Assembly: GCA_947372925.1 (NCBI GenBank)
Contig: CANBVQ010000010.1
Span: 1-34,734, forward strand
DNA from: Acidimicrobiaceae bacterium
GTDB taxonomy: Bacteria > Actinomycetota > Acidimicrobiia > Acidimicrobiales > RAAP-2
Direction of reading: 5' to 3'
Length of the DNA: 34,734 nucleotides
Shown: positions 11,861 through 32,796 of the stretch, in pieces
Layout: the number at the start of each line of letters is the position of its first letter
Numbering within the stretch: position 1 is the first letter of the stretch
Translations under genes and position numbers: made by a program
The notes under the pieces: model-generated
The model's input: the letters and a program-made list of their open reading frames with translations, nothing else
The model's database searches: none
What the model was told of the DNA's origin: nothing

Positions 11861-12436
11861 ATGGCTGACGTACTGGTTATCGACAACTACGACTCCTTCA
11901 CCTGGAACCTCGTTCAGGAGATGGGTGAACTCGGGGCGACCCTCGAAGTGCGCCGCAACGACAACATCACGATTGACGAGATCCGCACCCTGCGTCCCGA
12001 CGGCATCGTCATTAGTCCCGGACCGGGCCGCCCCGAACAGGCCGGTATTAGCTGCGACGTCATTCGTGAACTCGGCGGAGAGATTCCCATTTTCGGCGTC
12101 TGTCTCGGCCACCAGGCGATTGGTCAGGTCTTCGGTGCCAGCATCGTTCGCGCCCCTTCGATTATGCACGGCAAGGTCAGCGAGATCACTCACGAGGGTC
12201 AGGGGGTCTTCGCCGGACTCCCCTCGCCCTTAATCGCCACCCGCTACCACTCGCTCGTCATTGATCCCGCCACACTCCCCGACGATCTCGTCGTAACGGC
12301 CTGGACCGGCGACATCATCATGGGCGTGCGACACCGCGCCAAGGAAATTGAAGGTGTTCAGTTCCACCCCGAGAGCGTCCTGACCAAAGATGGTCTGGCG
12401 ATGCTCGGAACGTTTCTCGGTCGTCTCGCTAACTAG
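11861..12436 (+). CDS. pabA: glutamine amidotransferase of anthranilate/aminodeoxychorismate synthase (TrpG/PabA)
   Basis: The 191-residue class I glutamine amidotransferase has the full triad: C81 in GVCLGHQ, H169 and E171 in FHPES. It also has the opening [16 protein letters not shown] and SPGPGRP. It feeds ammonia from glutamine to a chorismate-using partner (TrpE or PabB), neither of which is nearby, so it may serve both tryptophan and folate synthesis. In mycobacteria the orthologous gene, usually called trpG, is also next to pknB. A TAACCT -10-like box (11846-11851) lies inside a 13-base palindrome just upstream. The last eight bases overlap the 3' end of pknB on the other strand. Confidence 0.9.
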
Positions 12437-14324: not shown

Positions 14325-14358
14325 AGTCGTGCTTAGCCTACGCCTTTACTTATGAGAA

Positions 14359-15858: not shown

Positions 15859-15865
15859 AATCGAC

Positions 15866-17038
15866 CTACGGCGCGACTGTGGGCTGCGTGGTCAGCCAGG
15901 CCGAGTGCATGTTGTCCGCGTGACGTATCGCTGCCGACAGGCTGGACTCCGCGATGTGCTTCTTTAGTTCCCGCGCATCACCGGGTCGCAGCTCGGAGGA
16001 CTTAAACGAGGTCACGAAGACTTCCTTCGGGTGATACCAGAGGAAGCCGTCGGGTTGACCTTGGTAGACCGCGATTGAGCCGTTGGCGTCACCGAGATAG
16101 AACGAGGCCGAGGCGAACCACCCCAAGATCACAAAGACGGCCGCCACGAGACCGGCCATAGCCGAGGCAAAAATTCCAGTCCGCAGCGTCATCCAGCGCG
16201 GCAAGTTGCGGCGGCGGCGGCGCATCACTGTTTCCCCGGTATCCGATGCGTGGGCACGACTGGCCGGAAACGTCCGCACGCTCGAGGGCGTCACCGCAAT
16301 TTCCGGGACAGCTACCGAGACTGATTCCACCTCGAGCAGGGCCACGGTGATGTTGTCGTGGCCACCGTTGGCGCAGGCTCGCGCTACGAGCGAGGCCACG
16401 GCATCATCGAGGCCAATCGGGCTCGATGCGAGTTCGGCCAACTCGGTGTCGCTCACTTCATTCGTCAGACCGTCACTACAGAGCAGTAGACGATCGCCAA
16501 CCTTCACGGAAAGCACGCCGGTGTCGCCGTCGAGTGCATCGGCCATACCTAATACCCGCGTCAGTTGGTGGCGGCGGGGGTGGACGGCCGCTTCTTCCTT
16601 AGAAATACGACCTTCGCGCACCCACTCTTCAGCCACGCTGTGGTCTTCAGTCACCTGACGAATCGCCCCGTCCCGAAGTTGATAGAGGCGAGAGTCACCG
16701 ATGTTGACCCAGGCGAGCGCCTCACCGTCTTCGTAGCTAACCGGCACGATGGCCGTCAGCGTGGTGCCCATACCGGCGCGCTCGGGGTGGGCGAGCGCGT
16801 CGTCCAAAATGGCCTGATTGACAACGTGGAGAGCGGTATTGAGTTCAGCGACTGAAGGCTCGCTGGTTATCGCTCGAGCAAAGACCGACACGGCGAGCTC
16901 GGACGCCACTTCGCCAGCGGCGTGACCACCCATGCCATCGGCCACCACGACCATGCGATCGGTGGCCGCTACGGCGTCTTCATTCGCCTCGCGAACGAGA
17001 CCGACATTCGTGGCTGTGGCGCAGCGCCAGGTAGTCAT
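15866..17038 (-). CDS. pstP: PP2C-family Ser/Thr phosphatase PstP
   Basis: The 390-residue protein has a PP2C domain in residues 1-237. E20-D21, D34-G35 in VVADGMGGHAAGE, D115 in NIGDSRLYQL, D189 in CSDGLTNE and D228 in GGHDNITVALLE form the metal centre. A basic linker (RRRRRNLPR) precedes one membrane helix (about 288-310) and an extracellular tail of roughly 75 residues. PstP reverses phosphorylation by PknB and acts on FHA-domain partners and cell-wall enzymes. It overlaps fhaB by four bases (ATGA), so the two are coupled. In mycobacteria rodA follows pstP; here pbpA follows directly. Confidence 0.94.
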   Translation of the reverse strand: MTTWRCATATNVGLVREANEDAVAATDRMVVVADGMGGHAAGEVASELAVSVFARAITSEPSVAELNTALHVVNQAILDDALAHPERAGMGTTLTAIVPVSYEDGEALAWVNIGDSRLYQLRDGAIRQVTEDHSVAEEWVREGRISKEEAAVHPRRHQLTRVLGMADALDGDTGVLSVKVGDRLLLCSDGLTNEVSDTELAELASSPIGLDDAVASLVARACANGGHDNITVALLEVESVSVAVPEIAVTPSSVRTFPASRAHASDTGETVMRRRRRNLPRWMTLRTGIFASAMAGLVAAVFVILGWFASASFYLGDANGSIAVYQGQPDGFLWYHPKEVFVTSFKSSELRPGDARELKKHIAESSLSAAIRHADNMHSAWLTTQPTVAP

Positions 17039-17514
17039 CGGACAACTTCCAAAATCACGTTGCCGATTTGAATCACGTCACCCTTCAAGAGTTGGGTGCG
17101 GTGGATCACCGGTTCGGCATTGACGTAAGAACCGTTGCGAGAGCCGAGATCTTCAATGAAGAGGTCGCCGCCATCGACTGAGAAACGGGCGTGCTGCGTT
17201 GACAAAAAGGTGTCATCAAGGATGATGTCGCTCGGAGCCCCCCGACCCAACACCACGGGATTCGAAACCTCAATCCGCTCGCCGGCCTGGGCCTCGGGCT
17301 CCATGAAGGAGAGGGTCAGCGGCCGGCGGCGTTGACGACGACCAGACTCTTCCTTGGGCGGGCGCATCTCCTCGGTGGCAATGGAAAGGACGCGCACGAA
17401 AAAGAGAATTACGCCCAGGAGGACGAGGATTTGGAGAGGCCGAACAATCGTGGCGTAGGCCGACGCCGCAACCAGCAAGTTAGGCCAACTCAATCCGGAA
17501 AACCTGTGAACCAA
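17035..17514 (-). CDS. fhaB: FHA-domain membrane protein FhaB
   Basis: The protein is up to 159 residues. An N-terminal membrane helix (about 22-44) is followed by a basic linker and a C-terminal FHA domain: VVLGRGAPSDIILDD, STQHARFS and DLGSRNGSYVN, which bind phosphothreonine. FhaB is expected to be phosphorylated by PknB and to tether cell-wall enzymes near the kinase. The start is uncertain. TTG at 17514 overlaps fhaA by 35 bases; TTG at 17493 or 17478 would give less overlap or none, and none has a clear ribosome binding site. The gene overlaps pstP by four bases. Confidence 0.88.
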   Translation of the reverse strand: MVHRFSGLSWPNLLVAASAYATIVRPLQILVLLGVILFFVRVLSIATEEMRPPKEESGRRQRRRPLTLSFMEPEAQAGERIEVSNPVVLGRGAPSDIILDDTFLSTQHARFSVDGGDLFIEDLGSRNGSYVNAEPVIHRTQLLKGDVIQIGNVILEVVR

Positions 17515-18127
17515 AGGAGATCTCGTCGTGAGGCGTCACGAGCACCGATTCGATGCGCCGGCCGTTGACCAGAGTCCCGTTGGTAGAGCCCAGGTCCCGA
17601 AGGCCCACGCCGTCGGGGGTGGACCAGATTTCAGCGTGGCGCCGAGAAACATTGGGGTCCGCCACCATAATGTCGCACTCCGCCGTGCGGCCAATGACCT
17701 GGGGGCGCTCACTGAGGTTGTACTGGCCGCCGTTCATGCTGACCAATTTGGGCTGGGGGCGCCCCGAAACAAAATTCACTCGAATGCCGAGCTGGCCCAT
17801 GGTGAGTGACGTGTCCTCGAAGATCTGCACTGAGACCGGGCCGACGAAGTCGTAGCCCTCTTGGAGGGCGTGTTCACGCACCGAGGAGGCCAATTCGTCA
17901 ATGGTGGACTGCTCAAAGCCGTGGAACCGGGGGGTGTCCTCGGCCGACAAGAAGATTCGAATGTCATTTGGCGCCATTGTCGAACTGGGACCGATACGAG
18001 CCGCGAGATCGAGCTCTCGTGCAATGCGCTGAGCGATCTCAATGGGCTGGACGTGTGAGCGCAGCCCCTTCGCAAAGGTACGGTCGAAGAGGCGCTCCAG
18101 CCGACTTTCTACGTTCTTAAGTGCCAT
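17480..18127 (-). CDS. fhaA: FHA-domain protein FhaA (DUF3662 N-terminus)
   Basis: The protein is 215 residues from ATG 18127. The N-terminal domain (about 1-120: MALKNVESRLERLFDRTFAK, QPIEIAQRIARELD) is the DUF3662 module typical of FhaA. The C-terminal FHA domain (about 142-213) has VIGRTAECDIMVAD, SRRHAEI and LRDLGSTNGTLVNGR, the phosphothreonine-binding residues. The long proline-rich linker of the mycobacterial protein is absent, making this form much shorter. FhaA binds phosphorylated partners of the MviN/PbpA machinery and links PknB signalling to lipid II supply. It is the first gene of the cluster. tRNA-Leu lies upstream on the opposite strand, as in mycobacteria. Confidence 0.92.
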   Translation of the reverse strand: MALKNVESRLERLFDRTFAKGLRSHVQPIEIAQRIARELDLAARIGPSSTMAPNDIRIFLSAEDTPRFHGFEQSTIDELASSVREHALQEGYDFVGPVSVQIFEDTSLTMGQLGIRVNFVSGRPQPKLVSMNGGQYNLSERPQVIGRTAECDIMVADPNVSRRHAEIWSTPDGVGLRDLGSTNGTLVNGRRIESVLVTPHDEISFGSQVFRIELA

Positions 18128-18213
18128 ACCCCTTAAGCGTACCGGTGTCGTTTGCCTATTTCGTGCCGGCAATTTGGAGCCTTTAGAAATAGAAGTAAAG
18201 TGATACTCCATTC

Positions 18214-18299
18214 GGGCGAGTGGCGAAATGGCAGACGCGCTGGCTTCAGGTGCCAGTATTCGAAAGGATGTGCGGGTTCAAGTCCCGCCTCGCCCACCA
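18214..18299 (+). tRNA. tRNA-Leu (anticodon CAG)
   Basis: Acceptor GGGCGAG (18214-18220) pairs with CTCGCCC (18289-18295), followed by A and an encoded CCA. The anticodon stem CTGGC/GCCAG encloses TTCAGGT with CAG. The long variable arm typical of tRNA-Leu precedes the T-arm GCGGGTTCAAGTCCCGC. Confidence 0.96.
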
Positions 18300-18309
18300 C
18301 ACCATCGTT

Positions 18310-18323
18310 GCCGCCCCGGCGGC
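18310..18323. terminator. GC-rich hairpin between tRNA-Leu and the VOC gene
   Basis: GCCGC (18310-18314) and GCGGC (18319-18323) pair around a CCCG loop between two convergent transcripts. There is no T-run, so termination activity is a guess. Confidence 0.35.
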
Positions 18324-18329
18324 TAGCCA

Positions 18330-18728
18330 CTAAGCAAGAAATTCTGCGGGATCGCGGTACCACTTGATTTCGATGACATTCCCACTGGGATCAGCCATCT
18401 TCCCGCCCAATTTGCCACTGAGTCGGGGGTCATCATGCAGCTTCGGAGCAGTAATCCACGTAACGCCAAACTTCGTCGCCCTGGCTACCACGTCACGGAA
18501 CTCCGACTCGTCCGGAAGGACTACGCCAAAGTGCAACACGCCCTGTTCGTCAGGAGAGCGAATTTCCTCGGGACGTTCCTGCAATGTCAGTTGCAGGCCG
18601 AAGAACCAGACATCGCACCATTCCGCAGTCTCTCGACCCAGGCGACAGCCGAGTGCACCTAGATAGAAATCACGTGCTTCGGGGAGACTTCGAACCGGTA
18701 TCGAAAGATGAAGGATTGATGTAGCCAC
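18330..18728 (-). CDS. VOC (glyoxalase/dioxygenase) superfamily protein
   Basis: The 132-residue protein has the two paired beta-alpha-beta-beta-beta units of the vicinal oxygen chelate fold. H7 (ILHLSIPV), H66 (VLHFGVV) and E120 (NVIEIKWY) occupy metal-ligand positions. SLPEARDFYLGALGCRLG and ADPSGNVIE are family-typical. Members include glyoxalase I, extradiol dioxygenases and antibiotic-binding proteins; nothing here narrows it down. The GTG start at 18728 is 29 bases after the PIN toxin stop on the same strand, so it may be read from the same transcript. Confidence 0.8.
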   Translation of the reverse strand: MATSILHLSIPVRSLPEARDFYLGALGCRLGRETAEWCDVWFFGLQLTLQERPEEIRSPDEQGVLHFGVVLPDESEFRDVVARATKFGVTWITAPKLHDDPRLSGKLGGKMADPSGNVIEIKWYRDPAEFLA

Positions 18729-18757
18729 AGAACAAAAGTAGTCAGGGGAGTGGGTGT

Positions 18758-19183
18758 TCAGCGGTGATCCGGATGAGGCACAGCAATGACGATGAGATTG
18801 TCGATGCCTTCAAAGTCTCGAGGATTGCACGTATAGATCGGAAGGTCATTACTCAATGCCGTTGCCGCAATGAGGGCATCGTATGCACGGGCTGTTGGCT
18901 TCCTTCCCCTTTGGCGGAGCGATGAAGCAACACGTCCAAACGCTCTCGCTGCGGCCGCATCAAAAGCAAGGGGCTCAAAATCGGCTTCCGCTTGTTGCAA
19001 GTGCGCCAGACGTGCAGACCGCTCCTTCTCATCATTGGTGGCCAAGGGGCCAACGGACAACTCCGCCAAAGTAATTGAGGAAATTAAGGGAATCTCGGGC
19101 AGCTTTTCGGGAGTCGTAATCCTGGGTAGGAGGATTACCGTAGAAGTGTCGAGAATCCCGTGAGTGGCTCGGTTCTCTTTCAT
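18758..19183 (-). CDS. PIN-domain toxin, VapC-like RNase (second pair)
   Basis: The 141-residue protein has ILDTSTVI (D12), ITLAELSVG (E41), ARAYDALIAATA (D102) and a C-terminal NPRDFEGI with D123. This is the full acidic set of active VapC RNases. The NPRDF-type ending groups it with the Mycobacterium-like VapC branch rather than with the toxin at 4516, so the two toxins are not a recent duplication. Its ATG overlaps the antitoxin stop by four bases (19180-19183), tying toxin synthesis to antitoxin translation. The RNA target is unknown. Confidence 0.87.
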   Translation of the reverse strand: MKENRATHGILDTSTVILLPRITTPEKLPEIPLISSITLAELSVGPLATNDEKERSARLAHLQQAEADFEPLAFDAAAARAFGRVASSLRQRGRKPTARAYDALIAATALSNDLPIYTCNPRDFEGIDNLIVIAVPHPDHR

Positions 19184-19416
19184 AATGCTGGGTCCACTAT
19201 CTGATCGATGTCATCGCGCAGTTTTTCGCCATCAAGGCGAGGAAGGTGCCGCCATCGTTCTAGAAGGGTTTCGGCGGTCACCCCTTGGCGCATTAGCGGC
19301 CGTAACTCAGCTACCGGCGTTCCATCTCGCGTTACAACAAGGGATTCGCCTCGTGACACACGATTGACGACATCGCCGCCATGATTACGCAACTCTCTAA
19401 TCGTTACCTCGCTCAT
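19180..19416 (-). CDS. Phd/YefM-type antitoxin (second pair)
   Basis: The 78-residue protein has the N-terminal signature MSEVTIRELRNHGGDVVNRV followed by SRGESLVVTRDGTPVAELRP, the Phd/YefM DNA-binding fold. The C-terminal part (ETLLERWRHLPRLDGEKL, ending DDIDQIVDPAL) should bind the toxin. Only the N-terminal half resembles the antitoxin at 4237. The ATG at 19416 has no ribosome binding site. A -10 box six bases upstream makes a leaderless message likely, with a palindromic operator over the promoter. Confidence 0.86.
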   Translation of the reverse strand: MSEVTIRELRNHGGDVVNRVSRGESLVVTRDGTPVAELRPLMRQGVTAETLLERWRHLPRLDGEKLRDDIDQIVDPAL

Positions 19417-19422
19417 GAAGTA

Positions 19423-19443
19423 AGTGTATCACGCGTGATACAC
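19423..19443 (-). promoter_or_regulatory. perfect palindrome and -10 box of the second toxin-antitoxin pair
   Basis: GTGTATCACG (19424-19433) is followed immediately by its exact reverse complement CGTGATACAC (19434-19443), a perfect 20-base palindrome. On the minus strand its end supplies TACACT, exactly at -12 to -7 from the antitoxin ATG. Binding of the antitoxin here would cover the promoter. The -35 region is weak. Confidence 0.7.
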
Positions 19444-19458
19444 GCGATTCAGTGGGCC

Positions 19459-20427
19459 CTACGCCTCGTCGAGCAGGGCCGCTTCGTCGGCCGAACTCAG
19501 CCAATGTCCGGGCCACTCACGAGTCCCAAACCAGGCGGCGGTGTCGTCAACACTCTCTTCCAGCGTTCGCAGAGTTAGGCCTAATGAGAGCGCCTTGGCG
19601 TTGCTCATATTGAGGGCCGTTTCACTCGAGGTGCCCGTCCAAAGCGGAAACTTCGCGTACCAGGCAGAGTCTTCAAGATGTTTGGGGTCGACCTCGACCA
19701 GCGTCGTGCCCTTGGGGGCCACGTGAGTCGCAATGCGCTCGAGAGTTTCGCCAAAGCTCAAGGCCGGCGAACTACCCAAGGCGTGTACCGCGCCGGCGAA
19801 GCGCTGCTCGGTAAGGAGCACCGCGAACGTTCCGAGGTCGCGAGCGTCAATCCACTGCAGGGAGTTCGCACGCGGTCCGGGGAATGCCACGCGGCCACCC
19901 TGTTGAATACGGGCGACCCAGTAGGGAAAGCGGAAGGTCTTGTCGTGACCACCGATCACGAAGGTCGGGCGCAGTATGCCAATGTTCGAACCGAATAGTT
20001 CTTCGGCGGCCCGCTCACACTCGGCCTTGAGAACGCCATACGTGGCCGCCGTGACGTCGGCGTTGGGATCGACGTCACCGAGCGCGAGACGAGGCGTGCT
20101 CTCGTCGGCCTGATCGGACTGGGGATCTTGGTAGGCGGAGATGGACGAGATCTGGAGGTAGTACCCGACTCGTGCGCCCATAGCGGCGTGGAGTAGTTCG
20201 ACGTCGCGGCGCTGGTAGGCAATGGCGTCGATGGTGGCATCAAAGGTGAGATCCGACAGAGCCGAGAGATCACTCTGACGATTCCCCACCAGGCGGTGAA
20301 TGGCTTCCGGCAGATCGGTGGGCGTCTCCCCACGATTAAAGACGGTGACGTCATGTCCGCGCTCGTGCGCCGCCAACGCAATGCCTCGACCAACAAAGGA
20401 TGTGCCACCAATAACGAGAATTTTCAT
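19459..20427 (-). CDS. NAD-dependent epimerase/dehydratase (extended SDR) family protein
   Basis: The protein is 322 residues from ATG 20427. MKILVIGGTSFVGRGIALAA is the N-terminal Rossmann GxxGxxG motif, and ATYGVLKAECE supplies the YxxxK catalytic pair. SSISAYQD with its upstream Ser completes the SDR active site, and LRPTFVIGGHD and LQWIDARDLG are typical of extended SDRs. The closest type I can name is the reductase group related to chloroplast CSP41 proteins; no substrate can be proposed. A promoter just upstream (20437-20465) gives a leader of only a few bases. The stop lies 15 bases before the toxin-antitoxin promoter palindrome on the same strand. Confidence 0.83.
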   Translation of the reverse strand: MKILVIGGTSFVGRGIALAAHERGHDVTVFNRGETPTDLPEAIHRLVGNRQSDLSALSDLTFDATIDAIAYQRRDVELLHAAMGARVGYYLQISSISAYQDPQSDQADESTPRLALGDVDPNADVTAATYGVLKAECERAAEELFGSNIGILRPTFVIGGHDKTFRFPYWVARIQQGGRVAFPGPRANSLQWIDARDLGTFAVLLTEQRFAGAVHALGSSPALSFGETLERIATHVAPKGTTLVEVDPKHLEDSAWYAKFPLWTGTSSETALNMSNAKALSLGLTLRTLEESVDDTAAWFGTREWPGHWLSSADEAALLDEA

Positions 20428-20436
20428 AGGGCTAGG

Positions 20437-20465
20437 ACTGTAGGCGAAACTCACTTCGGTCGCAA
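20437..20465 (-). promoter_or_regulatory. promoter of the epimerase gene
   Basis: On the minus strand TTGCGA (20465 to 20460), a 17-base spacer and TACAGT (20442 to 20437) match -35/-10 consensus in four positions each. Transcription would start about three bases before the ATG at 20427, and no ribosome binding site is present. Confidence 0.5.
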
Positions 20466-20490
20466 CACTCGTCACACCCGAGGGATATCC

Positions 20491-22089
20491 CTAGCGCTGT
20501 TCGACCATGTCCATGTAGTCCTCGCGCCAGAGATCGAAATACTCCTCCGGCAGCAAGACGGCGTGGGTGGGGTCGAGCGCCTCGACGAATGCTCGTTCGT
20601 GGGAAACGGCGATGATGGTGCCACTCCAGCCATTGAGCATCTCCCCCACCGCTTCAACCGAACGGGGGTCCAGGTTGTTGGTCGGTTCGTCCAAAATCAA
20701 GAGGTTGGCCTCCGAGGCGGCCAACATGGCCAGCGCCAATTTGGCCCGTTCACCACCCGACAACGTGTCGGGTGTTTGTAATGCGGCCGATCCCTTGAGG
20801 CCGAAGGCACCGAGGAGCGCGCGTCGCTGCACTTCCGTCTCGACGGTGGCGTTATCTAAGTGGGCCAGCACCGTCTTGTTGGGGTCCAGGTTTTCGTGTT
20901 CCTGGGCGAAATAGCCTCGCACCACATTGGCGCCGAGCTTCACCGATCCCGACGTGGCGACCTGGGCCTCCGCGAGACAGCGCAGGAGGGAGCTCTTGCC
21001 GGCACCGTTGCGACCGACAATCAAGATTCGATCCCCACGCTTGGTAATGAAACTGGTGTCCTTCAAAATCTGCGTGTCGCCGTAGCGAACAGAGATGCCC
21101 GACGCCGTGAGTGGCACGTCACCGCTGCGAGGCGGCGTGGGCAACTTGAACTTCACCTTGCGCTCGCGCTGGGTGACTTCCACACGGTTGTCCTTCAGTC
21201 GATCAACTCGATTATCCAAAACCTTGGCGAGGCGAGCCCGCTTTTCGGTCTGGCCTCGCATGGAGTTGGCCAACTGCGACAACCGTTCGATGTCGGCGTC
21301 CTGGCGGCTGGCCAGCTTCTCTTCACTGGCGATGGTCACTTCTTCTTGCTCGAGAAACTTGGTGTAGTTGCCCTTGTACTCGCGCAGGCGACCCTCACGC
21401 AGTGAGAGCACGCGGTCGATGGCCTTGTCTAAGAGGGGCAGGTCGTGACTGATAACGAGCACGGTGCCAGGGAACTTTTCCAATTCGTCAAACAGCCAAC
21501 GCTTGGCCGCCTTGTCGAGGTGGTTGGTTGGTTCGTCCAGCACCATCGTTTCGGGCTGTTCGTAGAGCACGCGCATGAGGTCCACGCGGCGTCGTTGTCC
21601 TCCGGAAAGCGAGGAGAGGTCTTCGAGGAGATACTCCTCCTCGAGACCGAGACCGGCCGCGAGGCGGGCCACTTCGGATTCGGCCTCGTAGCCACCGAGG
21701 TCACGGAAGCGCTCTTCAATGTTGGTGAAGGCTTCGATGTTTTCGCTCGAGGGATCGGCGGCCATCGCGTGGCGGGCCGTGTGCATATCGGCGTCGAGCT
21801 TGTCGAGACCGCGCGCCGAGAGGATGTGGGACAGACCAATTGGCTCCACGCCCAGTCCGCCGGGCACTGGTTCTTGGGGCAGGTGGGCCCATGACCCAAA
21901 GCGCTGCACGGTGCCTTCCACTCGAAGGTGTTCGCCGCCTTCGCTGAGTAGGACGGACAGGATGGTCGACTTGCCCGCGCCGTTACGTCCGACGATGCCG
22001 ACCTTCTCCCCCTCACCAATGGTCAGGTGGGTGGGCGTCAGGATACGGCGAGTACCAATTTCAATTGCGAGATCTCGAACTATGAGCAT
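20491..22089 (-). CDS. ABC-F family ATPase
   Basis: The 532-residue protein has two ABC ATPase domains and no membrane segments. The first has GIVGRNGAGKST (31-42), LSGGQRRRVDL and LDEPTNHLD; the second has LIVGRNGAGKSS (357-368), LSGGERAKLAL and LDEPTNNLD. Between them (about 245-325) is a charged, helical linker, the P-site tRNA interaction motif region of ABC-F proteins. Such proteins act on the ribosome, as translation factors or in antibiotic target protection; this sequence does not decide which. Its ATG overlaps the stop of the upstream CoA-transferase gene by one base. Confidence 0.92.
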   Translation of the reverse strand: MLIVRDLAIEIGTRRILTPTHLTIGEGEKVGIVGRNGAGKSTILSVLLSEGGEHLRVEGTVQRFGSWAHLPQEPVPGGLGVEPIGLSHILSARGLDKLDADMHTARHAMAADPSSENIEAFTNIEERFRDLGGYEAESEVARLAAGLGLEEEYLLEDLSSLSGGQRRRVDLMRVLYEQPETMVLDEPTNHLDKAAKRWLFDELEKFPGTVLVISHDLPLLDKAIDRVLSLREGRLREYKGNYTKFLEQEEVTIASEEKLASRQDADIERLSQLANSMRGQTEKRARLAKVLDNRVDRLKDNRVEVTQRERKVKFKLPTPPRSGDVPLTASGISVRYGDTQILKDTSFITKRGDRILIVGRNGAGKSSLLRCLAEAQVATSGSVKLGANVVRGYFAQEHENLDPNKTVLAHLDNATVETEVQRRALLGAFGLKGSAALQTPDTLSGGERAKLALAMLAASEANLLILDEPTNNLDPRSVEAVGEMLNGWSGTIIAVSHERAFVEALDPTHAVLLPEEYFDLWREDYMDMVEQR

Positions 22090-23381
22090 TAGCGGGCAAT
22101 AACTTCGGCAGCGGCGCGGAGCTCGTCTCGGAACTGGGGGTGGGCAATATCGGCCAACAAGTGGGCTCTCTCTCGAACGGTAGCCCCACGCAGATCGGCG
22201 GCGCCGAACTCCGTGACGATGACCGCAGTGTGGTGACGAGGGGTCGCCACAACTGAGCCGAGGGGTAGTTGGGCCGCGATGCGGCTCACCGTCTCTCCGT
22301 TCACTTCAATAGTGGAACGAAGGCAAATCAAAGAGACATCGTCGAGCGAGAGATCGGCGCCGGCCACGAAGTCCTCGTGACCACCGACTCCCGAGACCTG
22401 GGCCCCGGCGACCGAGTCGGCCACCACTTGACCGTAGAGATCGACGGAGATGGCACCGTTGATGGAAACAAAATTCCGGTTCTGTCCAATGATAGTGGGG
22501 TCGTTCACAACTGAGACCGGAGCAAAGCGAACGTCACGGTTCTCGTGGAGCCACTCGTAGAGTCCCTTGGAACCGAGTGCGAACGTCGTCAGGGAGAAGC
22601 CGTCGTAGATGCCCTTATGAGCATTAGTGACTTTGCCCGAAGCCTGCAATTTCCAAAGGCCGTCGGTAAACATCTCGGAGTGAATGCCGTACTCACCGCC
22701 CACGCGCTTCGCGAGTGCTTCGGCCACCGTGTTGGGAATCGCCCCGATGCCGGTTTGGAGTGTCGCGTTAGCGGTGATGTAGGGCAGCGTGTGTTGGGCA
22801 ATCGCCAGGTCGGCTTCAGTGGGTGCTTCACCTGGGAGCTCGAACGGCACTTCCTCGCCGCGGACGAGAACGTCAATCTCGTTAACCGAGAGTCGATTCT
22901 CCATGCCGGGAATTCCCGAAGTCCAGGGCAGATGTGGGGAGGTCTCCACAATCAGGAGGCGATCGGGGTCGGCGCCAGCGGCCCGGAGTTCATCCAGGGT
23001 CGCACCACAGTGCAGAGAAAGGCTGCAGAATCCGTGCTGGTCGGGTGGGGTGGCCTGGACCATCATCACGCGTGGAGCCAAGCGTCGAAGAATCGGTGCG
23101 AACTGGCGGAAGCCGGCCGGGACGTGCTCAACGTTGCCACCGACACTGCGGTAGTACCGCTCGGCCGGACCGAAGAAGCCCGCGCGATAGGCCACGTTGG
23201 GGTGCGTGAAGAGATCAAAGAGGCCGAGAATGAGCGCCCCACCAATAGTGAGCTGCTCCCAGTCCTTGCGCTCCGACATCGCTCGAAGCATGGTGTGGGG
23301 GTTGGCGGGACCGAGTCCAAGACCCACGGTGTCAACAGGACGTAGCAACGCGGTGGCTTCGGTGGCCGTCATTTCACGCAT
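22089..23381 (-). CDS. acetyl-CoA hydrolase/4-hydroxybutyrate CoA-transferase family protein
   Basis: The protein is about 430 residues. An N-terminal half (about 1-190) and a C-terminal half with NATLQTGIGAIPNTVAEAL, the catalytic Glu in GIHSEMFTDG, GAISVDLYGQVVAD and a final HHTAVIVTEFGAADLRGATVRERA are classic for the family. It moves CoA between carboxylates through a glutamyl-CoA intermediate, for example from acetyl-CoA to 4-hydroxybutyrate or butyrate. I prefer ATG 23381 over ATG 23387 because GGAG (rc of 23390-23393) is eight bases from the first and two from the second. The ABC-F gene follows with a TAATG overlap. Confidence 0.9.
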   Translation of the reverse strand: MREMTATEATALLRPVDTVGLGLGPANPHTMLRAMSERKDWEQLTIGGALILGLFDLFTHPNVAYRAGFFGPAERYYRSVGGNVEHVPAGFRQFAPILRRLAPRVMMVQATPPDQHGFCSLSLHCGATLDELRAAGADPDRLLIVETSPHLPWTSGIPGMENRLSVNEIDVLVRGEEVPFELPGEAPTEADLAIAQHTLPYITANATLQTGIGAIPNTVAEALAKRVGGEYGIHSEMFTDGLWKLQASGKVTNAHKGIYDGFSLTTFALGSKGLYEWLHENRDVRFAPVSVVNDPTIIGQNRNFVSINGAISVDLYGQVVADSVAGAQVSGVGGHEDFVAGADLSLDDVSLICLRSTIEVNGETVSRIAAQLPLGSVVATPRHHTAVIVTEFGAADLRGATVRERAHLLADIAHPQFRDELRAAAEVIAR

Positions 23382-23434
23382 TGTCATGACTCCATTCTGC
23401 CCTATCTCGCCGGCGACTGTGTCACGATGGTGGG

Positions 23435-24091
23435 ATGAGCACTGTACTTCGTATCGATGTTTGGGGCGACGTCGTCTGCCCCTTCTGTTATCTCGGCAAG
23501 CGTCAGCTCGAACTCGCGGTGAGCCAATTCGATCCCACCATCACGGTGGAGATTCATCACCGGGCCTTCGAACTCGACGTTCGCGCTCCGGAGCACTACT
23601 CGCACTCGCTGGCCGAACTCCTCAGTAAGAAGTACGGCATGACCGTGGAGCAGGCCGCCACCCAGAACCAACGGATGGAGGCGTCGGCCGCGCGCCTCGG
23701 CATGACGTGGCGTCTCGATCAGTGCCAGCCTTCAAATACCTTTAACGCCCATCGACTAATTGCGCTGGCCACCAGCCAGGGTCTTCAGGACGCCATGATC
23801 GAGCGGCTCTTTCAGTCCTACTTCTGCGAAGGGGGCCGGCCGGCCGATCGCGACCTCCTCGTGGCCCTCGCCAATGAGGTCGGCGTAGCCGACGCAGTCG
23901 TCACGCTCGAGTCCGACCGTTTCGCCGACGAAGTCCGACAGGACGAACTCGACGCCAACGAACTCGGAATCACCGGTGTGCCCAGCATCTTGATTGACGG
24001 ACGATTTATGGTCATGGGCGCCCAGGGCGCCGATGAAATTCTCTCCGTGATGGAACGGGCCTGGGCCCGACGTCAAAAAGAACTGGCCTAA
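23435..24091 (+). CDS. DsbA family oxidoreductase, FrnE-like
   Basis: The 218-residue protein starts with LRIDVWGDVVCPFCYLGKRQLE, a thioredoxin-fold strand followed by C15-P-F-C18. GITGVPSILIDGRFMVMGAQ holds the conserved cis-proline. The helical insertion between them is that of the DsbA/FrnE/2-hydroxychromene-carboxylate isomerase group. There is no signal peptide, so it is a cytoplasmic thiol oxidoreductase, as FrnE homologues are. The C-terminus overlaps gyrA by four bases (CTAA, tail to tail). Confidence 0.87.
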   Translation: MSTVLRIDVWGDVVCPFCYLGKRQLELAVSQFDPTITVEIHHRAFELDVRAPEHYSHSLAELLSKKYGMTVEQAATQNQRMEASAARLGMTWRLDQCQPSNTFNAHRLIALATSQGLQDAMIERLFQSYFCEGGRPADRDLLVALANEVGVADAVVTLESDRFADEVRQDELDANELGITGVPSILIDGRFMVMGAQGADEILSVMERAWARRQKELA

Positions 24092-26562
24092 GCCTCGTCC
24101 TCTTCAAAGGGCACGGCAGCAGCCGTGGCGACGACGTGTCCTTCGTCAAGATTCATCACTCGAACACCCGTTGCGTCACGGCCCTGCGAAGAGACTTCGC
24201 GTGCGGGGGTCCGAATCATCACACCACCCGATGAGGCCAACAGGAGTTCGTCCTTGATAGTCACCATGAAGGCTGCGGCCACGTGTCCGCGAGCAGCGGT
24301 GAGCTTGATAGCCCGCACGCCCATACCGCCACGGCCCTGTGTGGTGAAGCGCTCCACCTTGACGCGCTTGCCGAACCCGGCGTCGGTGACACAGAAGAGA
24401 TCGGCGTCGCTGCGAACGGTGTCGAGTGAAATGACCTTGTCGTCACCGCGCAACTTGATACCGCGAACACCGGTCGAGTCACGACCCATGGAACGCGCCT
24501 CGTCGGCGGCGAAACGAATGGCCGTTCCGCGATAGGTAACGAGCATGACGTCGTCGCCCTCCTTCACCGAGATCACGCGCACTACTTCGTCGTCGTCACG
24601 AAGCTTGATGGCGATCCAACCTTCGCGGCGAGACTTGTCGTACTCGGAGAAAGCCGTCTTCTTCACCGTGCCGTTCGCCGTGGCGAACAACAGGAATTGG
24701 TCTTCGGGGAAGTCTTCCGTTGACACGATGGCCTGGATTGTCTCGTTGGGCTGCAAGTTGAGCAAGTTAACGATGGCCGTTCCCTTGGCCTGACGCTCCT
24801 TCATGGGGATCTCGTGACCGCGGAGACGGAAGACGCGCCCACGGTTGGAGAACATCAAGAGATAGGCGTGAGACGACGTGTTAACTATCTGGTCAACGAA
24901 GTCCTCGTCCTTCAACTTGGCGGCCGTAACGCCGCGGCCTCCGCGGCCCTGCGACTTAAAGGCGTCTGCCGCGACTGACTTTACGTAACCCGACTTGGTC
25001 AACGTGATGACGATGTTCTCGTCGTCAATCAAGTCTTCCATGCCCAATTCGCCTGGGTCATTCACAATGGCCGTGCGGCGATCGTTGGCGAACTTGTTAC
25101 GAATGACCGTGATCTCATCGCGGATGACTCCACGAAGCTTCGTGTCACTCGCGAGAATTGATTCGAGTTCCGCAATGGTCTCGCGAAGCTTCTTCATCTC
25201 TTCTTCAAGCTCATTGCGACCCAGCTTGGTCAAACGGCCGAGCGTCATGTCCAAGATGTGGTTGGCCTGCTCTTCGCTGAACTCAAATGGTGCGGCCATC
25301 AACGCAATACGCGCTGCGGGGCGGTCGTCCGAACTGCGAATAGCGGCAATAACGGCATCGAGCATGTCGATGGCCTTGAGCAGTCCTTCGACGATGTGTG
25401 CGCGGGCTTGGGCCTTGCGGAGTCGGAACTGCGTACGGCGCGTGATCACCACAATCTGGTGGTCGACGTAGTGCGAAATCGCCTGGGACAACGTCAGCGT
25501 GCGGGGCACGCCATCCACCAGCGCCAGCATGTTGACGGCGAACGTCGTCTGCAGCGTGGTGTTCTTATAGAGCTTGTTGAGCACAACGTTGGCGTTGGCG
25601 TCACGCTTCAGACGAATGACGAGTCGAGACTTACGGTTCGCCGAGTCATTCTGCACGGCGGCAATGCCATCAATCTCGCCCGACTTAACGAGGTCGTAAA
25701 TCTTCTCTTCGACATTCTCTACTGATACTTCGTAAGGGAATTCCGTAACGACGATTCGGGTGTCGCCCTTGGTCTCTTCGATTTCGGCGACGGCGCGCAT
25801 CTTGATGGAGCCGCGACCCGTCCGGTACGCGTCGAGGATTCCCTGGCGACCGAGAATTTGTGCTCCCGTCGGAAAGTCGGGACCCTTCACGTGGGCCATC
25901 AAGTCATCCGGCGTAGCGTCGGGCTTTTCGAGGACGTGCAGCACGGCGTCGATAACTTCACCCAAGTTGTGCGGGGGAATACGGGTCGCCATACCAACGG
26001 CGATACCCTGCGAGCCGTTGACCAACAAGTTGGGGTAACGGGCGGGCAAAACGGTGGGCTGGGCCGAGGTGTTGTCGTAGTTGGGTTCGAAGTCAACCGT
26101 GTCTTCGTCGATTGAATCCAACAGCTCGAGGGCCAGCGGGGCGAGGCGACACTCGGTGTAACGCATGGCGGCGGCGCCCTCGTCGGGACCGGTACCTCCG
26201 AAGTTGCCGTGGCCGTCAATGAGGGGGTGGCGCATGGCGAAGTCCTGCACCATACGCACGAGGGCGTCGTAGATCGCACTGTCACCGTGGGGGTGATACG
26301 TACCCATAACTTCGCCGACCACCTTGGCGCACTTGGTGTGCGGGCGGTCTGGGCGGAGACCCTGGTCGAACATGGAGTACAGAATTCGGCGGTGCACCGG
26401 CTTGAGGCCGTCGCGGACGTCCGGTAGAGCTCGCGAGACAATGACCGACATGGAGTACTCCAGGAAGGAGCGCTCCATTTCGAAGTTGATCTCTACCGGC
26501 TCGATGTACCCGAAGGTCTCGTCGGAAGGAGTGGGAGTGGCGTCGTCGTTTTTCTTAGCCAT
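24088..26562 (-). CDS. gyrA: DNA gyrase subunit A
   Basis: The 824-residue protein is full length with no intein. The active-site tyrosine is Y135 in AAMRYTECRL. The quinolone-determining region reads HPHGDSAIYDALVRM, with S95 and D99 at the positions of E. coli S83 and D87, the usual sensitive residues. The C-terminal pinwheel carries a GyrA box of the form QGRGGRG, plus further blades with QGRGGMG and QGRDATG. Next to the active site, GTGPDEG appears one residue longer than the E. coli loop. Gyrase introduces negative supercoils. The gene starts 16 bases after gyrB and is surely co-transcribed with it. Confidence 0.98.
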   Translation of the reverse strand: MAKKNDDATPTPSDETFGYIEPVEINFEMERSFLEYSMSVIVSRALPDVRDGLKPVHRRILYSMFDQGLRPDRPHTKCAKVVGEVMGTYHPHGDSAIYDALVRMVQDFAMRHPLIDGHGNFGGTGPDEGAAAMRYTECRLAPLALELLDSIDEDTVDFEPNYDNTSAQPTVLPARYPNLLVNGSQGIAVGMATRIPPHNLGEVIDAVLHVLEKPDATPDDLMAHVKGPDFPTGAQILGRQGILDAYRTGRGSIKMRAVAEIEETKGDTRIVVTEFPYEVSVENVEEKIYDLVKSGEIDGIAAVQNDSANRKSRLVIRLKRDANANVVLNKLYKNTTLQTTFAVNMLALVDGVPRTLTLSQAISHYVDHQIVVITRRTQFRLRKAQARAHIVEGLLKAIDMLDAVIAAIRSSDDRPAARIALMAAPFEFSEEQANHILDMTLGRLTKLGRNELEEEMKKLRETIAELESILASDTKLRGVIRDEITVIRNKFANDRRTAIVNDPGELGMEDLIDDENIVITLTKSGYVKSVAADAFKSQGRGGRGVTAAKLKDEDFVDQIVNTSSHAYLLMFSNRGRVFRLRGHEIPMKERQAKGTAIVNLLNLQPNETIQAIVSTEDFPEDQFLLFATANGTVKKTAFSEYDKSRREGWIAIKLRDDDEVVRVISVKEGDDVMLVTYRGTAIRFAADEARSMGRDSTGVRGIKLRGDDKVISLDTVRSDADLFCVTDAGFGKRVKVERFTTQGRGGMGVRAIKLTAARGHVAAAFMVTIKDELLLASSGGVMIRTPAREVSSQGRDATGVRVMNLDEGHVVATAAAVPFEEDEA

Positions 26563-26578
26563 GGTTCTTTCGTCGCCC

Positions 26579-28573
<1,995 letters not shown>

Positions 28574-28644
28574 CTAAATCCTACCGGTTGGCGTGTGACA
28601 AACGGTGGTCCTAATGGTCGGTTAGGCCAAGTTTTTTGAGAGAA

Positions 28645-28947
28645 TTATCCGCGGACGACGCACTGAATTCCAGTGGGAGCGGACGGCCCGAGATCGCTCA
28701 GGGCGGCCACGATTCGCTGCTCTTCGTGACTCAACTTCTGGGCGTAGGCACCCGTCGGAACGCGGATGTGGAGCACACCATCTCGAACCACTTCGGGGTG
28801 GCATCGTTCGGCGAGGACTCCCCCAACAAGATCGGGCCACCGCAACAGGATTGTTTCCATCACCGATAAGTCGACGTGTTGAAAACGACCGATCAGCCCC
28901 CGGAGGGTCTGCCCGAGCTTTTCTGGTTCACTGGATCGCTTGGCCAC
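28645..28947 (-). CDS. DUF721 protein, DciA-like replicative helicase loader candidate
   Basis: The 100-residue protein has the DUF721 core: LGQTLRGLIGRF near the start, then a WPDLVGGVLAERCHPEVVRDGVLHIRV stretch (about 36-63) and AYAQKLSHEEQRIVAAL. The W...VG..la..t.P..l.dg.L.v.v pattern is the KH-like domain of DciA, which helps DnaB onto origin DNA in bacteria without DnaC/DnaI. Its place between recF and gyrB is typical of actinobacteria. The GTG start overlaps the recF stop by one base (TAGTG), implying coupling. Function as helicase loader is inferred from family and place. Confidence 0.85.
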   Translation of the reverse strand: MAKRSSEPEKLGQTLRGLIGRFQHVDLSVMETILLRWPDLVGGVLAERCHPEVVRDGVLHIRVPTGAYAQKLSHEEQRIVAALSDLGPSAPTGIQCVVRG

Positions 28948-30026
28948 TACTCCCCCTTCGAAAGATCAATGATGACGGCGGGGAGTAGCTCTTGTGGGAG
29001 CGGCGAGGCCGTCGTTACTAGCGTTTGTCCTGATGGGAGTAGGTGTAAGAGTCGGGAACAACGAATGGGGTCGAGCTCACTGAAGACGTCGTCGAGCATC
29101 AGCAGCGGCGAGATGTCGCGCTCCCGGCGCACGAGGGCGTCACCGGCGAGCAGCATCGAGAGGGCCACGCTGCGCTGTTCGCCCTGACTGGCCTGGCGTC
29201 GGGCGTCTCGCTGGTCGAGCGTGATGCGGATGTCATCTCGGTGCGGTCCGACCGTCGTGTGACCCCGGTAGCGATCGTCTCGAAATGCTTCGTCCAGCGA
29301 AGAGGCCAGCTCACCGGCCCACGATCGTTCGTACGCGAGCCCCACGTCACCACTACCACCGGCAATTTCTTCGTAGTAGGACGCGGTGAGTTCGGCGAGT
29401 GGGGTCAACACCTTTTCTCTCGCCCCAACGAGCAGTTCGCTCACCTCCACGAACTCTGAGGTCCAGATGTCCAACTCGTCGCGCTGCATCGCGGTAGGCA
29501 TTTCCCCGCCAAGGGATTTAAGGAGGGCATTGCGCTGACGCAGTACCCGTTCGAATCGTTCCACAACGTCACTGGTACGAGGGTCGAGATTCACGATGAG
29601 CCGGGTGAGAAAATCGCGGCGGCCGCTCGGCTCACGGCGAACCATGTCGACACCTTCGGGGGTGAAGATGGTTACGGGAAAGACGTCGTAGATATCGGCG
29701 TACGTCTGGGGTCGCTGCTCGTTAATGGTGAGCCGTTTTGTGACGTTGCGGGCGCCACGCTTTAACTGGAGCTTCATGTCCAGTCGCCGAGTGCCCTGGA
29801 AGGCCAGGCCGTGGACCGAGGCGGCGTCAGATCCCGTGCGCAGTAGGTCACTCGCCGACGTCGTTCGAAACGAACCACCGGTCGCCAGAGCGAAAACGGC
29901 CTCGAGAATGGAAGTCTTTCCGGTGCCGTTGGGCGACAGAAAGACAGTTACCGCATCGGCCGGGGGCGTGACGTGACGACTTTCAAAAACCCGAAAGTTC
30001 GTCAGTTGGAGTTCAACGAGACCCAC
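28947..30026 (-). CDS. recF: DNA replication/repair protein RecF
   Basis: The 359-residue SMC-like ATPase begins VELQLTNFRVFES. Its Walker A is S31-P-N-G-T-G-K-T38, where the first residue is Ser rather than the usual Gly. GPHRDDIRITLD, the signature region SQGEQRSVALSMLLAGDAL, and Walker B LLMLDDVFSELD complete the ATPase. RecF loads RecA at gaps with RecO and RecR. The GTG start is 14 bases from the dnaN stop, so dnaN-recF-DUF721 form one operon. Confidence 0.96.
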   Translation of the reverse strand: MGLVELQLTNFRVFESRHVTPPADAVTVFLSPNGTGKTSILEAVFALATGGSFRTTSASDLLRTGSDAASVHGLAFQGTRRLDMKLQLKRGARNVTKRLTINEQRPQTYADIYDVFPVTIFTPEGVDMVRREPSGRRDFLTRLIVNLDPRTSDVVERFERVLRQRNALLKSLGGEMPTAMQRDELDIWTSEFVEVSELLVGAREKVLTPLAELTASYYEEIAGGSGDVGLAYERSWAGELASSLDEAFRDDRYRGHTTVGPHRDDIRITLDQRDARRQASQGEQRSVALSMLLAGDALVRRERDISPLLMLDDVFSELDPIRCSRLLHLLPSGQTLVTTASPLPQELLPAVIIDLSKGE

Positions 30027-30040
30027 CGAAGTGGCGCGGA

Positions 30041-31138
30041 TTACTGAACGCGGACGGGCATGAGGAGGTAACGGAAGTTCGTGTCCTCCACCCCGTGCAA
30101 CATGGCGGCGCGACTGGCATCAGTCATCTCCAAGATGACTTCATCGCCGGGAACGGCCTCGACACCCTCCATGAGGTACGAGGGGTTAAAGGCGATGGTG
30201 ATCTCTTCGCCGTTGTAGTCAGCGTCAACGCTGTCCACCACTACACCCTGGTCGGCGCTCTGCGTTGTGATGTCGATGCTTCGATCGTTCATCGTGAGTC
30301 GCACAGATGAGGTGGGGTCTTTAGCCAACACCTTCATTCGCTTGAGCGAACTGAGGAACGTGTCCTTACCAACGCGGAGTTGGTTGGGGTAGTTCGGCGG
30401 AATCAGCGGGCGGTAGTCGGGGTAGTTTCCGTCGATCAACCGCGTGGAGATGCTCGTATTTCCCGCGACGAAGGTGACTTCGGCATCCGAGACAGCGACA
30501 CCAATGGTGCTATCGACTGGCAGGTTGGATGCGGCGCGCTGCAGTTCAGAAAGTGCACGTGAGGGAATCAGTAGATCATCATCGGTCGGCAACTTCTGTG
30601 AACTCATGAGGTCACGAACCGCGAGTCGGTACGAGTCGGTGGCGACCATACGAACAGTGCCACCTTCATTAGTAAAGAGCACGCCCGTCAACAAGGGACG
30701 TGCGTCGTCATTCGACGAAGCCCGAACAACTTGGCTAAGGCCTTCGATGAAATCCAGTGCAGCGAGTTGGGCCGCGGCCGCTGGAACTTGGGGCAACTTC
30801 GGAAAGTCCACGAGGGCGTACGTGCGCAACGAGTAGTTCGCCTTGCCGAGCTTGACTTCGACTTTGTCGTCTTTGGACTCAACGGTTACTGCGCCGGCGT
30901 CCAAAAGGCGGACGGCATCAACGAGGAGACGAGCAGGAACAACAACGGCGCCGTCTTCGTGACCAATCACGTCGAGACTCACTCGGGCCGTGGTGTCGAG
31001 ATCAGTACCGGTGACTGTTAGTTGGTTACCGGTGAGCGCCAAAAGGATTCCCTGGGTGGCACCGGAGGTCCGGCCAACGACGCGACTCGCGGTGGCGAGC
31101 GCTTCGACGAAGACATCCTTCTCTGATTTGAACTTCAT
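30041..31138 (-). CDS. dnaN: DNA polymerase III sliding clamp (beta subunit)
   Basis: The 365-residue protein has three similar domains of about 120 residues. N-terminal MKFKSEKDVFVEALATASRVVGRTSG, mid-domain LLTGVLFTNEGGTVRMVATDSYRLAVRDL, and the C-terminal FNPSYLMEGVEAVPGDEVILEM followed by FRYLLMPVR are standard for DnaN. It encircles DNA as a dimer and holds the polymerase. AAGGAAGGGAA lies just upstream of the ATG, a good ribosome binding site. The 252 bases between it and dnaA form the likely origin. Confidence 0.97.
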   Translation of the reverse strand: MKFKSEKDVFVEALATASRVVGRTSGATQGILLALTGNQLTVTGTDLDTTARVSLDVIGHEDGAVVVPARLLVDAVRLLDAGAVTVESKDDKVEVKLGKANYSLRTYALVDFPKLPQVPAAAAQLAALDFIEGLSQVVRASSNDDARPLLTGVLFTNEGGTVRMVATDSYRLAVRDLMSSQKLPTDDDLLIPSRALSELQRAASNLPVDSTIGVAVSDAEVTFVAGNTSISTRLIDGNYPDYRPLIPPNYPNQLRVGKDTFLSSLKRMKVLAKDPTSSVRLTMNDRSIDITTQSADQGVVVDSVDADYNGEEITIAFNPSYLMEGVEAVPGDEVILEMTDASRAAMLHGVEDTNFRYLLMPVRVQ

Positions 31139-31193
31139 GTCGTTCCCTTCCTTGGGACTGAGGCTATGGGGATTTTGTCTAATAAGAAGTACT

Positions 31194-31217
31194 TAGTAGT
31201 AGTAGCCCTGTGGATTG
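31194..31217 (-). promoter_or_regulatory. DnaA-trio-like unwinding element with adjacent DnaA box
   Basis: Four TAG triplets in perfect register (31194-31205), then CCC, then DnaA box TGTGGATTG (31209-31217). Read on the minus strand this is box, GGG, then CTA repeated four times, leading into AT-rich DNA. This is the order described for the bacterial basal unwinding system, in which DnaA passes from the box onto single-stranded trios. Confidence 0.65.
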
Positions 31218-31323
31218 CGGGTTATTTTCCGATTCTCCTGATAAGGCTGGTTCAAGTATGAGGCTCAAAAGTGACACCGGTGTGTCTAACTCTTTCAACC
31301 CTCATCTCCTAAGTCTCACTTGA

Positions 31324-31360
31324 TGTGGATTACTAGGCAGTTATTCCCAGCCCATCCACA
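31324..31360. promoter_or_regulatory. cluster of three DnaA boxes near the 3' end of dnaA
   Basis: TGTGGATTA (31324-31332) differs from TGTGGATAA in one base; TTATTCCCA (31341-31349) and CCATCCACA (31352-31360) differ from TTATCCACA in two each. The first is on the strand opposite to the others. Confidence 0.55.
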
Positions 31361-31390
31361 AGTTCTCCGCAGCTTTGTCCCCCTACTTTC

Positions 31391-32758
31391 CTAGTCGATT
31401 GAATTGGTGATTTCATTGGTGAGCCCAATGATGACCTGGGCTAGTTCCCGGTCAGAAACCATTTCACCCTTGATCTTCTCGACCGCACTGATGATCGATG
31501 TGTGGTTGCGGTCACCAAATTCCTTGGCAATCACTGGGTATGAAGATTGGGGCAACATCTCACGTACGAGATACATGGCGATGTGGCGGGCGTGTGTCAA
31601 GGGCCGAATACGGCGAGGACCCCTTAATTCCAAGGCGGAATAGCCAAAATGGCTGGCCACCGTATCGATTATGTGTTGGGGCTTCAGGACCATCTGGTCC
31701 CGCCCGAGGCCACCGAGGTGGCTCTTGGCGAATTCCAAGGTGATCTTCTCTTCGGCCAGCTGGGAGTGCGCGCGCAGCATGGTGATGGAGCCCTCAAGCT
31801 CACGAATCGAGTCACGAACGCGATTGGCAATGTATTCAATGACGTCGTTTGGAATGACGACATTCTCACGCTCGGCCTTCATTTGCAGGATGGCGATCCG
31901 GGTTTCGAGGTCGGGCTGGCCCACCTCCACGATCAGGCCCTGCAGGAGACGTGACCGGAGCCGCTCTTGCAGCTTGTCCATATCCCGGGGCGACTGGTCG
32001 GAGGTCAAGACGATCTGCTTGCCGGCGCCGTGGAGCGTATTGAAGGTGTGAAAGACGTTTTCGTGAAAACCTTCACCGCGGGGAATCATGAATTGAATGT
32101 CGTCAATAAGCAGGACGTCGACTGAGCGATAGCGCTCGTGGAGGGCAATCTGGCTCTGTTCTCGGACGGAGCGAATGAAGTCATTAAGAAACGTCTCGGT
32201 AGTTACGTAGAGCACTTCTTTTTCGGGCCAGTGGCGCTGTACGTAGTTACCAATGGCGTGGAGCAAGTGGGTCTTACCCAACCCGGACTTTCCGTAGATA
32301 AACAGGGGGTTGTACTCCCGGCCGGGGCGCTCGGCGGCCGATTCGGCCGCGGCCTTAGCCATGCGGTTGGAGCCACCGGTCACGAAGGTCTCAAAGGTCA
32401 TGCGGGGGTCGAGGCTCTGACCGCGACCGACCGAGGGTGAAGAAGGTGTGAAGGTTGCCACGGGTGTGGTGGTGGCGACGGGCGGCGCGATAGTCACCAG
32501 CGAGTCGAACCCGTCATCAATGGTGATGCGAATCGAACCCTGAGGCCCAACAATGGTCCGCAACTCCTGCTCGAGAAGCGGCAGATGGCGACTATTGATC
32601 TGGTTGGACTGCACTTGGCTCGGAACACCAATCGACAGGACGCTTTGTCCGTAATCCACAAACTTGATTGCGCTGAGTGTGGCGTTCCAGGTAGGGGCGG
32701 GAACCTTATTTTGAACGGCTTGTCGCCATTCTTGGTACACCTCCGGTCCCTCTAACAC
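31391..32758 (-). CDS. dnaA: chromosomal replication initiator DnaA
   Basis: The protein is 455 residues from GTG 32758, selected because GGAGG (32768-32764) lies five bases before it; the longer TTG start at 32770 would include that GGAGG. It has domain I (VYQEWRQAVQNKVPAPTW, LSIGVPSQVQSNQINSR) and a short Pro/Thr/Ser-rich domain II. The domain III AAA+ module has Walker A GKSGLGKT (156-163) and Walker B LLIDDIQF (D219, D220). The DNA-binding domain IV has RPLTHARHIAMYLVREM and FGDRNHTSIISAVEKI. It melts oriC and starts replication. Domain II is short compared with the long linkers of streptomycete DnaA. A DnaA box lies 30-38 bases upstream, suggesting autoregulation. Confidence 0.97.
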   Translation of the reverse strand: MLEGPEVYQEWRQAVQNKVPAPTWNATLSAIKFVDYGQSVLSIGVPSQVQSNQINSRHLPLLEQELRTIVGPQGSIRITIDDGFDSLVTIAPPVATTTPVATFTPSSPSVGRGQSLDPRMTFETFVTGGSNRMAKAAAESAAERPGREYNPLFIYGKSGLGKTHLLHAIGNYVQRHWPEKEVLYVTTETFLNDFIRSVREQSQIALHERYRSVDVLLIDDIQFMIPRGEGFHENVFHTFNTLHGAGKQIVLTSDQSPRDMDKLQERLRSRLLQGLIVEVGQPDLETRIAILQMKAERENVVIPNDVIEYIANRVRDSIRELEGSITMLRAHSQLAEEKITLEFAKSHLGGLGRDQMVLKPQHIIDTVASHFGYSALELRGPRRIRPLTHARHIAMYLVREMLPQSSYPVIAKEFGDRNHTSIISAVEKIKGEMVSDRELAQVIIGLTNEITNSID

Positions 32759-32787
32759 CCTGTCCTCCAACGACGATCAAAATTAAG

Positions 32788-32796
32788 TTATCAACA
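32788..32796. promoter_or_regulatory. DnaA box upstream of dnaA
   Basis: TTATCAACA has one mismatch to TTATCCACA. On the minus strand it overlaps the AT-rich TGATAACTTAATTTT stretch that is the best candidate for the dnaA promoter -10 region. DnaA binding here would therefore repress its own gene or add to origin function. Confidence 0.6.

Follow-up and report, generated by a model that had tools for sequence, protein, structure and literature searches.

The window analysed here is the whole stretch of 34,734 nucleotides, taken from an assembly of 1,486,445 bp (1.49 Mb) in 101 contigs, and the nearest named records to it were MAGs of uncultured Acidimicrobiaceae/Actinomycetota. It carries dnaN, encoding the sliding clamp (365 aa), at positions 30041-31138 on the minus strand, with homologues at the same place in relatives. 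In the best-aligned segment DnaN was 100% identical to that of WLNA01000013.1 (isolate UFOp-RH-23may17-1075). The initiator gene dnaA lies at 31391-32770, also on the minus strand (start codon uncertain; Bac_DnaA, 8.9e-64), and the alignment of its product to the B. subtilis DnaA structure 8btg covered the AAA+ and DNA-binding domains in full. The gap between the two genes (31139-31390, 252 bp) adjoins dnaA and dnaN and holds a cluster of DnaA boxes, by which a chromosomal oriC is recognised. Besides a box-trio module, it contains DnaA-box-like sites at 31281-31289 (TTAGACACA, minus strand, two mismatches), 31324-31332 (TAATCCACA, minus strand, one mismatch) and 31352-31360 (CCATCCACA, plus strand, two mismatches). 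An inverted pair resembling CACA-N4-TGTG (GACACACCGGTGTC in the window) is found at 31270-31290, preceded by GTTGA repeats, and recurs at a similar position in the gaps of the genus. In many genus members a sequence resembling CACACCGTAACCTCAGTAG also separates the AT-rich region from the ribosome-binding site of dnaN; the copy in the window (31139-31193) is degenerate, and no such stretch was seen in the order relatives. On the other side of dnaA, inside the rpmH-dnaA gap, a DnaA box with one mismatch (TTATCAACA, 32788-32796, plus strand) possibly serves dnaA autoregulation or forms a second part of the origin.

Read on the minus strand from dnaA towards dnaN, the module has the order CAATCCACA GGG CTA CTA CTA CTA AGTACTTCTTATTAG. 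The preliminary description of this DNA had reported four in-register TAG repeats followed by three C/G pairs and a box, and this was confirmed to the base on the plus strand, with TAGTAGTAGTAG at 31194-31205, CCC at 31206-31208 and TGTGGATTG at 31209-31217. The proximal, trio-side DnaA box CAATCCACA (31209-31217, minus strand) has two mismatches to TTATCCACA, and its core TCCACA is strongly conserved in the genus, order and class. It is overlapped by a weak distal box, TAACCCGCA (31216-31224, minus strand), in which three mismatches were read directly; in most relatives the second tandem box is clear at this position, as in TTGTCCACAATCCACA. The proximal box is separated by a GC step of 3 nt (GGG, 31206-31208, minus strand) from the four DnaA-trios (CTA CTA CTA CTA, 31194-31205, minus strand), which are unique in the genome. 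On the plus strand, which DnaA would hold, the trios read 3'-GAT-5'. Together with the adjoining AT-rich DNA they form a predicted unwinding region of low duplex stability at 31170-31205, about 30-70 bp from dnaN. The flank said earlier to reach back to about 31171 was indeed AT-rich, with 71% A+T over 31171-31205, and the 30-mers starting at 31170-31176 belonged to the most unstable in the 34.7-kb window, at about 4 SD from the mean. The palindrome AAGTACTT noted before is present at 31187-31194; it was rejected as a functional part, being carried by one of 35 non-redundant genus sequences.

The module was compared in the dnaA-dnaN gaps of same-genus, order, class and phylum genomes and of 80 named loci, amounting to about 250 related origins. 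Mononucleotide shuffling of the gaps (2,470 shuffles) gave a combined score for box, spacer and trios of 23.9 at most, with a 99% value of 21.4, and the window scored 31.2. Scores above the 99% value were reached in all 33 same-genus gaps, of which the window is one, in 19 of 23 gaps from the order, in 84 of 111 from the class/phylum set and in 68 of the 80 named loci. The sets for base-level conservation comprised 35 non-redundant sequences from the genus, 87 from other class members and 36 from members of other classes. They were thinned by identity only and selected for having a scoring module, so that their counts are not independent events and prevalence is given by the above-threshold gaps. 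Among the 35 genus sequences CTA was found at trios 1 and 2 in all, at trio 3 in 33 and at trio 4 in 23. The spacing of box, GC step and trios, which the preliminary description had wanted compared in related genomes, was a box, 3 nt and CTA-CTA in 35/35. The GC step measured 4 nt in 73/87 other class members and 34/36 members of other classes, and in both sets at least 89% kept the middle base in trios 1 and 2. The module is thus kept in the genus, and altered forms of it occur in the order, class and phylum. A full set of four perfect repeats is not needed, because the nearest named relative (L172) has CTG CTA CTA CTA. In a group of small class relatives of about 1 Mb (L129-L134, family f32) the dnaA-dnaN gaps were only about 104-117 bp long, with no clear box-trio unit in most.

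The published rule for predicting basal unwinding systems takes a DnaA box with at most two mismatches to TTATCCACA that has three or more 3'-NAN-5' triplets within 16 nt, GAT being the most frequent of these; the GC step averages 4, and a second tandem box is commonest without being required. In the window, CAATCCACA differs from TTATCCACA at two positions and is followed, after the 3-nt GC-rich step GGG, by four GAT trios, where at least three are expected within 16 bp. Given this match, the polarity, the single genomic copy of the repeat, the score above shuffles, the conservation from genus to phylum, the low duplex stability, the alignment of DnaA to that of B. subtilis and the weak skew signal in relatives, the element probably acts at the chromosomal origin as its basal unwinding system, as had been proposed for it, and we put the probability of this reading at about 0.88. 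Points against it are the weak distal box in the window, a genus DnaA with two changed DNA-contact residues, the missing skew switch in the window, whose genome is fragmented, and the opening position mapped in M. tuberculosis. By analogy with published systems, DnaA would bind the tandem boxes (31209-31224) in their double-stranded form and would then be led past the GC step of 3 bp to the GAT trios on the plus strand. A filament of ATP-DnaA, with about one protomer per trio, would stretch this strand, and a bubble at about 31170-31205 would open towards dnaN and become the entry site for the helicase.

The closest likeness is to B. subtilis (boxes 6/7 and DnaA-trios; PMC6669920, PMC8287927), which shares the box, GC step, 3'-GAT-5' trios, AT-rich DNA, dnaA-dnaN location and polarity. 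It differs in its GC step, which is GGCC in comparison to 3 nt in the window, and the window has a weak, overlapping distal box and an actinobacterial element (element X, below) upstream. In oriC2 of Helicobacter pylori (PMC8235120) the ts boxes are likewise followed by a GC-rich step, then trios, then an AT-rich region, whereas the box consensus is another; opening was shown there by footprinting and begins just beyond the GC step, and for the window it is predicted. The oriC2 of Clostridioides difficile (PMC7561715) has, as in the window, DnaA boxes followed by a trio run (CTACTACTATTACTACTA) downstream of dnaA, but belongs to a bipartite origin in a different phylum, and its unwinding has been tested. 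Mycobacterium tuberculosis (PMC2607554) shares an actinobacterial dnaA-dnaN origin. Its permanganate-detected opening lies in an A+T-rich stretch at -500 to -518 from dnaN (PMC2607554), and because this position differs from that of the window site, at about 30-70 bp, actinobacteria may not all behave alike. In vitro demonstrations of basal unwinding cover B. subtilis, S. aureus, L. monocytogenes, E. faecalis, H. pylori, S. elongatus and D. radiodurans. None of these is an actinobacterium, and our searches of the open-licence literature found no actinobacterial test of the system. The window origin and its relatives offer a defined scaffold for one.

As the block sits 56-67 bp before dnaN, and the conserved genus stretch (close to CACACCGTAACCTCAGTAG in many relatives) lies between the two, it could instead be mainly a control or leader region through which DnaA regulates dnaN, kept for transcription and not for unwinding. 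This is improbable given that the three-base register, box polarity and GC step recur throughout the phylum, whereas the stretch adjoining dnaN does not, and that in the order relatives the block lies anywhere from about 45 to 140 nt away from dnaN. Equally improbable is that the main opening site lies elsewhere near dnaA, in another A+T stretch or in the rpmH-dnaA gap, and that the block is auxiliary. The distant opening in M. tuberculosis and the one-mismatch box TTATCAACA (32788-32796) in the window's rpmH-dnaA gap would fit such an arrangement, but the most unstable DNA near dnaA-dnaN is that of the trios, and a reading of the rpmH-dnaA gap of the window revealed no comparable box-trio unit.

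An unwinding system at the module agrees as well with its rarity. The string CTACTACTACTA occurs once in the 1,486,445-bp assembly, at the gap. The short pattern TCCACA-N2-5-YTAYTA alone had about equal frequency in the genome and in a control reading, so the rarity is due to the four perfect repeats and their location. That the four TAG repeats are a triplet run from chance or slippage, as a short perfect tandem repeat with a fourth copy variable among relatives might suggest, was rejected as hardly conceivable, since the genome has one copy, no shuffle reached the module score and trios 1-2 are unchanged in 35 genus sequences.

GC skew had also been suggested as a check on the origin. No skew switch was found within the window itself, whose own genome is fragmented, and the relatives were weakly compatible with an origin in the gap, which is not proof of it. 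The skew changed sign near the gap in three same-genus contigs (G005, G025 and G032), being negative towards dnaA and positive towards dnaN, and the first 10 kb were irregular; in G114 it was flat towards dnaA. A complete relative from the order (4.78 Mb, sampled every 240 kb) had its cumulative skew peak at about 2.0-2.3 Mb, about opposite dnaN (4.68 Mb). Plus-strand skew in the window was mostly positive over 12000-31200, though dnaN and the adjoining large genes are on the minus strand; this sign is opposite to the usual leading-strand bias, and skew is weak in the group.

A further conserved element, X (TTATCAGG, 31237-31244, minus strand), was located by motif search and by its 20-nt distance to the distal box. 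Its forms are TGAYCWGS-like overall, T.ATCAGG in the genus and TGACCTGG-like in the class. An unsupervised search of the 48 bp upstream of the genus boxes found T.ATCAGG at -28 or -27 in 33/33 sequences, with a log-likelihood of 143 in comparison to at most 32.5 in shuffles. The class motif at -27 gave a z of 23 against shuffles (control region, z 2.6). In other classes the motif at -29 to -27 had a z of 5.0, which alone is not evidence because the control region reached z 5.6, probably from scattered DnaA boxes. Position was the better test, and for it a matrix was trained on the class only, the other classes being left out of training. Of the genus members with both parts, 26/26 have X starting 20 nt ahead of the distal box, as do 62/75 class members. 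In other actinobacterial classes 15 of 20 origins had this start at 19-20 nt, where about 2/20 would be expected by chance on two given offsets with 19 offsets searched. All these distances carry some selection, because one script, working with a tolerance, also placed the boxes. The spacing of the tandem boxes differs (7 or 8 in the genus, 7 in the class, 8 or 9 in other classes), and the distance from X to the proximal box drifts along with it. A compensation between GC-step length and box spacing was rejected as a genus rule, since the total is 11, as in the class, with 8-bp spacing but 10 with 7-bp spacing.

The window copy, TTATCAGG, precedes the weak distal box (31216-31224) by 20 nt. 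As 20 bp is about two helical turns, X would share a face with the distal box, and as its distance is fixed to the distal and not the proximal box, contact with DnaA bound at the distal box is predicted. We consider, at about even odds, that X is a third, undescribed element of the actinobacterial module, locked 20 nt before the distal box; it could be a low-affinity DnaA site or a site for a partner protein that steers DnaA to the boxes, and in the genus it is paired with a DnaA changed at the positions of E. coli D433 and H439. No description of it was found in the open-licence literature. It may be related to the I-sites of E. coli, which it resembles. An IHF-type site was rejected for X: the genus form GATCAGG is loosely like WATCARNNNNTTR, but the forms in the order and class (GACCTGSG, TACGCTGG) depart from it. 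A promoter -35 element for dnaN was likewise rejected, since no suitable -10 was seen by eye. The module itself is well supported as a further example of the described system, and element X and the unusual DnaA are offered in addition as observations.

At the D433 position, in the domain IV motif RNHTS, all 55 genus DnaA sequences, some of which are the same genome under two identifiers, have Asn. This residue was found in none of 186 other DnaA sequences, which have Asp (177), Ser (6), His (2) or Thr (1). The H439 position is Ser in 53 and Ala in 2 of the genus sequences, and His or Tyr in 178/186 others. D433 is highly conserved and reported to contact box position 7, and H439 is listed among the base-contact residues. 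The trio-side box nevertheless keeps its TCCACA core in the genus. A member of another genus in the same family (G106) has Asp at the D433 position, and its step is 4 nt long (L059, TCCACA-GCCC-TTACTA), so the residue changes and the 3-nt step arose on or near the same branch. Their co-occurrence is one event and shows no causation; the 3-nt step is also found in some Asp-bearing class members. A genus-wide box change matching the DnaA was rejected. CGCACA-type sites are commoner in the genus, but mostly as a single site towards the dnaA end, and many members, among them the window, lack them; the trio-side box stays TCCACA. In L129-L134 (family f32) DnaA has Ser at both the D433 and H439 positions.
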